From Umbelopsis ramanniana AG (lineage: Eukaryota; Mucoromycota; Umbelopsidomycetes; Umbelopsidales; Umbelopsidaceae), in NCBI RefSeq assembly GCF_025399195.1, contig NW_026252150.1:1-54509 (forward strand): a stretch of 54,509 nucleotides of DNA, read 5' to 3'. Each line of letters begins with the position of its first letter. Within the stretch, counting starts at the first letter, position 1. Shown here piece by piece: positions 19,830-44,197 of this stretch. The notes below the pieces were generated by a model that saw only the letters and a program-made list of their open reading frames with translations, ran no database searches and was not told where the DNA came from. Both the position numbers and the translations under genes were made by a program.

Positions 19830-20130
19830 CAAGATACAGACTCCGAGGTAAGATTTGGATCAAAGGCAGAAACATGATTCACCGACGTTCCTTCAAGAAG
19901 GGCCTGGAATGTCTGGTGTTACATGTCCCTAAATCCATGTCAATGGCAAGGCTGATTCTTTCTGAATGTGTGGAGCCTTTATGTCTGAAGATCAAGCGAA
20001 AGGATAATGCTAATGCATGATAGTTAAAGACTGAAAGGTGTCTGTCCGTTGTTCCTATAGCGATTAAACGAACAAACAATATATTGGTTGTCTTGGGGTT
20101 GGCCATCCAGTTCGCATAGGCTATTGTCAT
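19830..20130 (-). pseudogene. Relic of an array-type SDR (C-terminal half)
   Basis: Read on the minus strand this sequence still gives AYANWMANPKTTNILFVRLI and, further on, VFNYHALALSF, which align with AYGQSKTANILFARELSKRY...LTAFSLHPG of the array genes. At DNA level the stretch CAGACTCCGAGG...TTTGGATCAAAGGCAG matches the region encoding AAFDPNIASESGS. Frameshifts and a missing N-terminal half show it is dead. It is the leftmost trace of the array and lies 240 bp beyond the stop of the first intact copy. Confidence 0.65.
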
Positions 20131-20372
20131 CGGGATGTGTGGTTGAGTTACGGATTTGGAAAAAGAAGTCTGTATTATGATCGATACGAATAAATGGTAA
20201 CAATTTCCAGAAGAGTATGATCATCAACGGAGATAACGGGATTTAATGCAGTTAGTTATATTATTTATTCAGCCGTAAAATACGAAGAAGAATTTGGACA
20301 ATTTTTTACAGCTGGGTATCGATCTATAATGACTATGGGCTACATCTGGTTGAGATTTACTACAGTAACCAA

Positions 20373-21332
20373 TCAGAACTTCTGTCCAACAATCTCTTCG
20401 CTCAATGCCCACAGCTTGGCAGCCTCTGTATCATCTTTGGCATATGGCTTAGCTTGATCCATAGCAATCTGGCAATCCTCCATATAAGATCCAGACTCCG
20501 AAGCAATGTTTGGGTCAAAGGCAGCAACAATATGAGTTGCAGTACCTGCACCAAGAGACTTGAAATCCGCTTCGCTGACTTGAAGTACATTACCTTCGTA
20601 ATCCTTTATTGGTACAGAGAACTCGGCCATATCAACATCACGAGCAAGATTAGTGAAGATCACACCGGGATGAGGACTGAAGGCAGTAAGCCCTGCGCTC
20701 TTGTAGCGCTTGGTCAATTCACGAGAAAACAGAATATTGGCAGTTTTAGATTGACCATATGCCCACCACTTGTTGTAGGCTTTACCGTTGTCAAAAAATG
20801 GGTCGTCGAAGTGGATGGGAGATAAAGTGTGACCGTTGCTGGAAACGTTGACAATGCGTGGCGCACCAGTCTTGGAGGCAAGGATCTTGGGCAAGATCAA
20901 GTTGGTGAAGAGGAAGGGTCCGATGTGGTTGGTACCGAATTGAGCTTCGAATCCATCCTTGGTGGTGTGATATGGTGATGCCATGATAGCGGCGTTGTTG
21001 ATCAAGACATCAATAGCTTCAGGATAGGTGTTGACTTCGGCAGCAGCATGTCGGACCGACTCGAGCGAGGCGAGATCAATAACGAGGGATCGTAAGTTAG
21101 CGGAAGGAGTCTCTGCCTTGATCTTTTCAATGGCATCGTCGAGCGCCTCTTGCTTTCTACCAGCAACAATAACTAAGCCAGCATGGTGCTTTGACACCAC
21201 TCTTGCGGTCTCATAACCAAGACCACCGAATGTGCATCCAGTGATCAAGACGGTCTTTCCCTTGATTTCGTTTTCAAAGTAAGTAGCGACTTCCTCAGCT
21301 TCAGTTTTGGAATTAAAGTTCTTGTTTGACAT
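20373..21332 (-). CDS. Array SDR copy 1 (intact)
   Basis: Single exon, 319 residues, start MSNKNF. It is an NAD(P)-dependent short-chain dehydrogenase with the array's glycine motif TGCTFGGLG (31-39, one residue longer than TGxxxGxG), NNAA (112-115), Asn135, Ser164/165 and YGQSK (192-196), so all catalytic positions are kept. By sequence style it sits near retinol dehydrogenase / TIC32 / WWOX-type SDRs; substrate unknown. A TATA run lies at 21391-21403, and a CCGG-containing element lies near 21460. First of the same-strand series. Confidence 0.88.
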   Translation of the reverse strand: MSNKNFNSKTEAEEVATYFENEIKGKTVLITGCTFGGLGYETARVVSKHHAGLVIVAGRKQEALDDAIEKIKAETPSANLRSLVIDLASLESVRHAAAEVNTYPEAIDVLINNAAIMASPYHTTKDGFEAQFGTNHIGPFLFTNLILPKILASKTGAPRIVNVSSNGHTLSPIHFDDPFFDNGKAYNKWWAYGQSKTANILFSRELTKRYKSAGLTAFSPHPGVIFTNLARDVDMAEFSVPIKDYEGNVLQVSEADFKSLGAGTATHIVAAFDPNIASESGSYMEDCQIAMDQAKPYAKDDTEAAKLWALSEEIVGQKF

Positions 21333-21390
21333 AATAGAGAATATGTATCAGAGTTGTGTTGATGTGTAAATTGTGAGCCACTGGTAGACA

Positions 21391-21403
21391 ATATATATAT
21401 ATT
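21391..21403 (-). promoter_or_regulatory. TATA box of SDR copy 1
   Basis: Run of AT dinucleotides 59-71 bp before the ATG at 21332, the spacing seen across the array. Confidence 0.55.
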
Positions 21404-41571: not shown

Positions 41572-41628
41572 AGCCGAAGTGAAGAGGATTGGTAGTGATG
41601 CATTTTACCAGCCAACCACTCGTGTTCC

Positions 41629-41635
41629 TTATATA
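41629..41635 (-). promoter_or_regulatory. TATA box of the GH5 gene
   Basis: TATATAA on the minus strand, 58-64 bp before the ATG. Confidence 0.55.
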
Positions 41636-43216
41636 CACTGGAAAAAACGCTTATGACTTCATGCATGCTCTGGTGTCGCCATGTAATGTAAAAGGGCCAT
41701 GTTAAACACCAGCTTCCCGCCTTATTTCATGAGCATAATTTACTCATTTCCAGAATCCCGCTTCGGTTGCGACAGATCTAGTCCGTTCAATAAATGAAAA
41801 TTACTTACTTTTGTTACACAGCATCCCACTCCAGCAAGAACCCTGCCTTTCCTACTGTTCAACCTACCTTTACCTGCCGGTACTTTCACGTTACATTGAC
41901 AATTAGGGCCATGTAACAGACGCTTTTGTGGTAAAAGTATCAAAGTAGGAAATACTACTGACCTGGATTACCGGGCTGAACCCTGGTAGTAAGAGTGGGA
42001 CATGGTACTCTGCTTTCATATGCAAAAGATCGGTGATGCCACATTTTTTGTATGAACATGTAGGTTTGAACAAAAGATCCTCACCTGAAAGAGAGTGAAA
42101 CAACTTCAATACTATTTTGATTGTCCTCGCCATTATAAAATCGGTTGAGCGAATGCTTCTGGCGATCATTTTCAGGGAAAATACTTGAATGGACGAGTTG
42201 GTCTGATGATCGCTCGTGGCAATGTGAGAAGATGCACCAAATGCAGCCGATCGGAATATCACACAATATGAGAGGCGACGGCTCCAGCAATCAGGTAGTC
42301 TATATTTCATAATGGCCATTTAGTACTCTATCACAACAAAATTTTGCGGTGCTTCAACTTTCCAACTTACAGCAGTTCGCGCATGATGATAAACAAATTG
42401 TAGTGTAGTTGGTCAGTGAAGGACCCTTTTCCTTGTGAAACAACAATGACCCGGTGTAAAAGGTAAGGAAATGGTGGGTATTACCTGGAATAACTACAAG
42501 TCATACCTTCCAGCAACCTTGATTTTGATCAAATCCGTATAGCGAATTTGTGTACCGGGTGATATTTCTTGGCTGGACGGGAGGGCTGGACAATAACTCG
42601 TATTAATAAAATCCTACCTCTATTGTACATGGTAAGACAGAGTGCTAAATAGAGCTTGAACATGAATTTCCCGTCCTTACACGCCCAGTTACCTTGTGTC
42701 CGCCTGCATTATCACCATTTGGTCATCGAATACCACCGCACCAAAGATACTTTTGGAAATTAGGACCCTCACACAGTGGAACCATGATATGGAGTTTGCT
42801 GGTATGAATCGTAAGCCTCAACAGATGCTAGGGTTTGGAAGGCGGGATGAAAACAATACGCACGATTTGCATAACATGTAGCACAAGCGAAAATTTAATA
42901 TCATTTCATTTTCGCCACTGGGTTTCGGAATACCGCTAGTCTTGTCAGCGCGCACCATTTGTAAGTGATTATTTCATGACAAAGATAGTAGATAGTCATC
43001 TGCTAGAGTGCATTTATTTAAAACATCAACGAAGTGGAAGAGTAGTGGCGAACTTACTATTGAGCTGTAGGATCCTCATCGGTCCTCAAATGGTTTGCCA
43101 GCACACTCTTAAAAATCTATATACACTGTCAGCCTTCCCTTTTTCAAACGCATGCGTATGGAGAAATCGTGAATAGCCATGAGAATTTCTATACCATGGT
43201 AAATGACCATAATTTT
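41636..43216. other. Intergenic region without a recognised gene
   Basis: About 1.6 kb. The only hint of coding is a minus-strand segment at 42290-42087 (product with DQLVHSSIFPENDRQKH) ending at a GTGAGG donor-like site. I could not extend it into a gene. A second frame (42319-41903) overlaps it. Confidence 0.35.
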
Positions 43217-44197
43217 TTAAGCCAGCGGGAACTTTTGTCCAACCATATCCTCGCTAAGTGACCACAGTCGTTGTGCAGCGTCGTCATCGAGAGCCCAAGA
43301 CTTTACAGAAGACACGTCGACTTGTGCGTTGTTCAAAAACAAACCAGATTGCTCTTTGATGGATGGGTCAAATGCCGCAACAACGGTGGTGGATGCGCCT
43401 TGTTCGACTGTCTTGCGATACAGAAATGACTTGAACTGAGGTGTGATTATGGAGTTGCCTTGAAAGTCAAGCATTCCGGCTTTCATTTCAACATCACGAT
43501 CAATGTGTCTCTGAAGGTTGGTGTCGATACTTCCAGGATGAAGACTATACGCAAGCAAGCCCTTATTGTTGTAACGATTACTCAATTCTTTGGCGAACAG
43601 TATATTGGCCGTCTTGGATTGGCCGTACGCAACCCATTTTTTATAAGTCTTGCCCTCAGAAAATGCGGGATCGTCGAACATGATAGGTGCGAAATGGTGC
43701 CCTGAACTGGCAACATTGACAACACGAGGCTCTCCAGTAGTAGACTCCAACATTTTTGAAAGAATCAAGTTGGTAAACACAAAGTGCCCAAGATGGTTGC
43801 ATCCAAATTGTCCTTCAAAACCGTCTTGAGTTTGGAAATATTCAGAGGCCATGACTGCAGCATTGTTAATCAGGACATCAATAGGTTCTTCATAGGCATT
43901 GACTTCCGCGGCAGCTTGTCGAACGGACTCCAGACTTGCCAGATCAAGGATAACGCTGCGAAGGTTGGCAGTCGGGGTCTCTTGCTTGATGTTTGCAATA
44001 GTCGTATCTATGGATCCTTGACTCCTACCAGCTAGAACGACGAGAGCTGCTCCATACTTGGCGACAACGCGAGCTGTTTCGCTACCCAGACCACCCCATG
44101 TGCATCCGGTGATCAAGACGTGCTTCCCTTTAATCTGAGATGCAAAGACGGAGGCAGCTTCTTCGGCTGTGGTATAGGGTCCGAAATTTTTTGACAT
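43217..44197 (-). CDS. Divergent array-type SDR (copy 13)
   Basis: Single exon, 326 residues, MSKNFGPYTTAEEAASVF. Family marks: TGCTWGGLG (30-38), NNAAVMAS, NVASSGH, YGQSK and LHPGSIDTNL. It is the right-most member and the array end nearest the unrelated genes. It differs by a longer loop after LHPG (ITPQFKSFLYRKTVEQG). TATTTATA core at 44253-44246, 49-56 bp before the ATG. Substrate unknown. Confidence 0.87.
   Translation of the reverse strand: MSKNFGPYTTAEEAASVFASQIKGKHVLITGCTWGGLGSETARVVAKYGAALVVLAGRSQGSIDTTIANIKQETPTANLRSVILDLASLESVRQAAAEVNAYEEPIDVLINNAAVMASEYFQTQDGFEGQFGCNHLGHFVFTNLILSKMLESTTGEPRVVNVASSGHHFAPIMFDDPAFSEGKTYKKWVAYGQSKTANILFAKELSNRYNNKGLLAYSLHPGSIDTNLQRHIDRDVEMKAGMLDFQGNSIITPQFKSFLYRKTVEQGASTTVVAAFDPSIKEQSGLFLNNAQVDVSSVKSWALDDDAAQRLWSLSEDMVGQKFPLA

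Follow-up and report, generated by a model that had tools for sequence, protein, structure and literature searches.

In the vertebrate UGT1 and UGT2A gene clusters, variable first exons are combined with constant exons, and gene conversion was found not to be predominant, as far as the accessible part of that report describes (PMC1885805). For short-chain dehydrogenases/reductases (SDRs), the titles and abstracts listed on gene conversion and short-chain dehydrogenases, and on partial conversion in tandem arrays, hold no SDR parallel, this being weak evidence of novelty in a source that scarcely covers subscription journals; nor do the accessible parts of three Umbelopsis papers mention the array described here (PMC13042297, PMC12002602, PMC7928374). 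This array lies in a 54,509-nucleotide stretch of Umbelopsis ramanniana AG (hereafter the window), namely contig C64:1-54509 of a 22.8 Mb genome, where the minus strand between 19,760 and 44,197 carries ten intact, intron-free classical SDR genes and six damaged copies, all in one orientation (Table 1). Of the damaged copies, one bears a nonsense mutation, one is a chimeric pseudogene, one is decayed and three are small relics, just as the initial annotation had counted them. The tandem family itself is of an ordinary kind; less ordinary is the mosaic pattern within its genes, and we judge it probable that this is an old Umbelopsis SDR array in which exchange between copies re-shares the cofactor half while the substrate halves diverge.

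The mosaic is seen among the eight crown copies (S01, S03, S04 and S06-S10; 28 pairs), which resemble one another over codons 1 to about 163 (the cofactor half) down to their synonymous sites, whereas the catalytic and substrate half has diverged. S01 and S03 share 96% of residues 1-160 and 63% of residues 161-320, and their synonymous divergence (dS), with the gene cut at codon 140, is 0.26 before and 1.61 after that point. Synonymous difference was lower in the N-terminal half (N-half) than in the C-terminal half (C-half) in all 28 pairs, which are not independent of one another; a one-break model placed the switch at a median codon of 163.5 (quartiles 159-166), and among 100 permutations per pair none gave a break as strong in 27 of the 28 pairs, with one as strong for S04/S06. 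The common break falls just before Ser165, which by its conservation is likely the catalytic serine. This partial likeness of the paralogs at synonymous sites is one mark of concerted evolution by gene conversion, and we infer exchange as its cause. A run-length conversion test, with unadjusted p under 0.05 in 14 of 28 pairs, is not relied on here.

The main alternative is a plain birth-and-death family, in which the 5' part is under stronger constraint at both the amino-acid and the synonymous level and little exchange is ongoing; we regard it as rather unlikely, and several comparisons speak against it. On average the crown paralogs of the window are 90% identical in the N-half and 71% in the C-half, whereas 14 cross-species pairs taken as orthologs show little such contrast (90% and 87%). 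The paralog contrast recurs in U. vinacea (N- and C-half 88/73%) and Umbelopsis sp. PMI_123 (88/69%), in the metagenome sets m21768 (five relatives, 81/66%) and m26118 (four relatives, 84/68%), each of which we presume to be one contig, and in the one pair of Umbelopsis sp. AD052 (82/62%). At synonymous sites, pairs of the nonsense copy S02 with the eight crown copies show no half contrast, the N-half proportion of synonymous differences (pS) being higher in six, equal in one and lower in one, near saturation, and the crown copies are likewise near saturation in both halves against S11 and S12. The trees of the two halves conflict as well, in that the N-half data reject the S03 orthogroup (approximately unbiased (AU) test, p 0.0056; 1 of 39 rows dropped from the N-half tree for too few residues) and the C-half data reject a grouping of S01 with S03 (p 4e-77). 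Exchange within a gene is evident in S05, a copy with many stops and frame changes: left of codon 129, 52 of 66 informative sites match S03, right of it 151 of 165 match S07, and the upstream flank matches S03 (85%) while the downstream flank matches S07 (88%). S05 is a recombinant.

Other observations weigh against exchange as the source of the mosaic, and some of them are what a constrained 5' half would give. N-halves are generally more conserved, as seen in nonsynonymous divergence (dN) between the crown copies and S11/S12 and in 21 pairs of Basidiobolus ranarum paralogs taken as a yardstick (mean 68/63%), so that some contrast between halves is normal. In 9 of 11 copies (all but S09 and S12) the N-half has the higher GC content at third codon positions, an excess that might reflect biased conversion but is common to S02 and S11. 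Elsewhere in the genome, two other SDR genes, likewise free of introns, form a tandem pair on contig C52 (L035 and L038, G000:C52:127386-129740); they are 77% identical to each other as proteins and, at 28%, distant from the array. Within this pair, taken as a control, pS rises from 0.46 ahead of the corresponding point to 0.69 beyond it, with a minimum of 0.13 at residues 141-160, a profile that may represent either a second case of conversion or position-dependent synonymous rates; a tandem pair on contig C10, tried as a further control, gave no long frames for comparison. The cross-species pairs were taken from the full-length tree, whose signal comes mostly from the C-half, and their high C-half identity is thus partly a matter of choice. 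From the N-half, the S01 orthogroup is not rejected (p 0.315); strong support is limited to 7 of the 35 branches of the N-half tree, and the choice of groups for the AU test was made with the tree already in view. The switch in S05 lies upstream of the common break. The strict cut for group-specific sites, 75% or more in each group, leaves six positions, three of them after residue 160, whereas a relaxed cut (60%, with m21768_P0032 left out of the S01 group) gives 27 positions, and this result therefore depends on the threshold. No dN/dS window above 1 was seen, so adaptive diversification is putative. The copies are probably NADP(H)-dependent carbonyl/alcohol oxidoreductases, an assignment from fold and motifs only.

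Judged by profile and catalytic motifs, the array members are classical SDRs. All ten intact copies match Pfam adh_short (PF00106) at 84.7-103.1 bits against a curated cut-off of 26.6, and at the sites checked all ten keep the active-site Asn, Ser, Tyr and Lys and the glycine-rich loop, the loop into which the stop of S02 falls; the nearest relative of S02, the metagenome protein P0037, retains the catalytic Lys. The eight crown copies have pairwise dN/dS values of 0.10-0.23, and the crown pairs are under purifying selection. We take the array to belong to the large SDR group resembling retinol dehydrogenases and protochlorophyllide reductases. The nearest folds are classical SDRs of the type of retinol dehydrogenase and light-dependent protochlorophyllide reductase (LPOR), namely PDB 3rd5 and the LPOR entries 7jk9, 6l1h and 6r46, and in the alignment with 3rd5 the glycine loop of the array is one residue longer. 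Scores against the NCBIfam models PRK06196, PRK06197 and LPOR all stay under their cut-offs; for the LPOR equivalog TIGR01289, the three of ten intact copies tested all reached 92-104 bits against a required 331.

Relatives were drawn from two homolog lists, each the best 120 of 8000 scored candidates, and the protein tree has 74 rows, including 62 of the best 120 relatives, 58 of which list were used in the structure alignment; since rows are representatives at 90% identity, copy counts per species are lower bounds. Among the matches listed, the closest named relatives come from U. vinacea, AD052 and PMI_123; U. isabellina and U. nana hold others, as does U. ramanniana in the case of S12. The closest relative in the same genome outside the row (C1:426550-427509, 60%) clusters with PMI_123 and AD052 copies. 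In the tree, S12 groups with U. ramanniana P0060 and metagenome P0053; S11 with PMI_123 P0072 and metagenome P0068; S10, S01 and S08/S09 with U. vinacea copies; S03 and S07 with AD052 copies; and S02 with a metagenome protein. The pairing of S04 with S06 follows the species, as against that of U. vinacea P0002/P0003, and five of six PMI_123 crown copies form one clade together with one WA50703 copy. The crown clade comprises 35 rows, to which the nearest copies of U. isabellina and U. nana are sisters, and no crown member among the 62 proteins and 90% representatives used is named from either species. The S11 lineage varies in length: its tree neighbours P0068 and P0072 have 355 amino acids (aa), whereas P0085 (U. 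nana) has 333 and P0069 (U. isabellina) has 334; only part of the lineage therefore carries the C-terminal extension.

SDR rows exist also in other species, as indicated by locus tags that lie close together in U. vinacea (INT44_007799, 007801, 007803, 007804, 007806), U. nana (Unana1_02020, 02022, 02024, 02025) and U. isabellina (NQZ79_g6387, g6389, g6391, g6393). These rows resemble the array in their related lineages and close tag numbers, but neither their members nor the known number of copies are the same, and only sister copies are seen in U. isabellina and U. nana (lower bounds). Because the window copies fall with counterparts from other Umbelopsis, the array is older than the species while turning over; it is neither brand new nor fixed. 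The dense, still-evolving amplification proposed in the initial annotation is supported by the pseudogenes, the chimera formed within a gene, the pairing of S04/S06 by species and the PMI_123 clade, and the same fixed array in all relatives, which that annotation had named as its refutation, was not seen among the rows used.

That the copies are kept for more of one activity, a dosage array, seems improbable. Ten intact copies and the purifying selection on crown pairs would suit it, but the N-half/C-half mosaic argues against plain dosage, as do the diverged crown C-halves and the lineages kept apart across species. The flanks point the same way: in 66 pairs of 12 copies, with 150 bases compared on each side and a threshold of four standard deviations of shuffles, upstream sequence was alike only in S03/S05, S04/S06 and S08/S09 and downstream sequence only in S05/S07. 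In the other pairs the likeness consequently sets in near the start codon, so that the majority of copies possess a promoter region of their own, which does not suit a simple dosage array. No two intact copies exceed 94.0% nucleotide identity and upstream regions are for the most part unlike, which makes a haplotype or collapse artefact behind the array unlikely. Between selection for dose and for substrate diversity, both of which had been suggested at the outset, diverging C-halves, alike N-halves and mostly unlike upstream regions favour diversity and leave dose less favoured, although substrate diversity itself is putative.

The guess that the array encodes oxidoreductases of trisporoids or other apocarotenoids in a mating-signal pathway found no positive support and is very improbable. 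Umbelopsis is placed in Mucoromycota, and the genome has undecisive prerequisites, four places resembling carotenoid-cleavage oxygenases (PF03055), one of them with ten internal stops, and three of the squalene/phytoene synthase (SQS/PSY) family, which are no proof of carotenoids because PF00494 also covers squalene synthase. None of nine PF03055 matches lies on contig C64, however, and the named close relatives among the matches listed are not Mucorales-wide: among the rows that bear a name (many do not), the first best-120 list holds no Mucorales protein and the second two, both of about 50% identity and from Gongronella butleri, presumably a member of Mucorales. On contig C8, places resembling carotenoid-cleavage oxygenases and an SDR relative (42%) lie within about 60 kb (G000:C8:33745-57124 and C8:92420-93479). 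In the accessible part of a published comparison, tsp1 and tsp2 occur in one to eight copies over the genomes compared (PMC5238444), a point in favour of the idea.

Table 1. Members of the SDR row and foreign genes within it (window coordinates)
Feature	Position	Strand	Evidence
Small relic	19760..20148	-	nhmmer E 2.3e-20
S01, intact SDR, 319 aa	20373..21332	-	open frame; adh_short 88 bits; NNA, Ser, YxxxK present
Small relic	21910..22286	-	nhmmer E 1.1e-8
S02, nonsense copy	22720..23673	-	one in-frame stop (codon 35); YxxxK without its catalytic Lys
S03, intact SDR	24223..25182	-	N-half with S01; C-half with S03 counterparts of other species
S04, intact SDR	25557..26519	-	open frame, adh_short
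S05, chimeric pseudogene	27075..28007	-	S03-like 5' part and upstream, S07-like 3' part and downstream; switch near codon 129
S06, intact SDR	28383..29345	-	open frame, adh_short; structure modelled
S07, intact SDR	29777..30739	-	open frame, adh_short
Small relic, weakest of three	30976..31149	-	nhmmer E 3.7e-6 and 0.17
S08, intact SDR	31707..32666	-	open frame, adh_short
Decayed 3' copy	33022..33568	-	nhmmer E 1.2e-81
S09, intact SDR	33763..34722	-	open frame, adh_short
S10, intact SDR	35430..36392	-	open frame, adh_short
Foreign gene, extended SDR/epimerase-like	37563..38637	-	Pfam Epimerase 62 bits on first part
S11, intact SDR, old lineage, C-terminal extension, 355 aa	39062..40129	-	open frame, adh_short, tree
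Foreign gene, GH5 family glycosidase	40441..41604	-	Pfam Cellulase 42.5 bits
S12, intact SDR, old lineage	43217..44197	-	open frame, adh_short, tree

The start codon of S07 was picked by likeness to the other copies, its frame staying open further upstream. As a control for the relics, five shuffles of the masked intergenic sequence gave 0, 0, 2, 0 and 0 tblastn rows at E 0.05. The epimerase-like gene has one apparent intron near 38060-37995, judged by eye, and its second part alone has no Pfam match. Beside the array, a piece of an aldo/keto reductase (17445-17924, minus strand; Pfam Aldo_ket_red, 76 bits) makes the region one rich in carbonyl oxidoreductases. Two further SDR-like stretches, 46168-47125 and 9591-10286, lie on the plus strand, opposite to the array, and the former is broken into several frames, perhaps by introns, in which it differs from the array genes. 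Near the contig start, a HET-domain gene (1120-3303, plus strand) scores 25.8 bits in Pfam, barely above the cut-off of 22.5, and a scan of the window for RNA families found none that reaches its gathering score.

Based on these findings, we propose that the array grew through exchange between copies; that copies are still gained, fused and lost is shown by the relics, the chimera and the tree. Ectopic gene conversion or crossing-over would keep spreading the Rossmann cofactor half (approximately codons 1-163) between the eight crown copies, while the remaining part, with the catalytic Ser, Tyr and Lys and the substrate lid, would be exchanged less and has diverged under purifying constraint. 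Exchange mediated by cDNA was dropped as a candidate, as the alike part is the 5' and not the 3' half. The outcome would be a set of reductases that have the cofactor module in common but differ in their substrate pockets, and its role may be breadth of carbonyl chemistry, for example the removal of environmental or endogenous aldehydes and ketones. A wider and more tentative possibility is a modular array driven by recombination, in which copies constantly exchange the cofactor module as far as the catalytic-serine loop, the substrate module of each copy is retained and diversifies, and occasional fusions within genes make new combinations, perhaps also in other tandem SDRs of the genome, as the C52 pair hints.

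If this is true, the array would show whether gene conversion of one half keeps a good cofactor module while substrates are explored, and it provides ten enzymes from nature on which the reduction of ketones and aldehydes could be compared, eight of which combine nearly constant cofactor halves with varied substrate halves. The logic of a constant domain and a variable acceptor-binding domain resembles that of UGT1 and UGT2A, as described in the accessible part of PMC1885805. However, the variable exons of those clusters share one set of constant exons, whereas the genes of the Umbelopsis array are whole and intron-free, and their likeness apparently arises by exchange.

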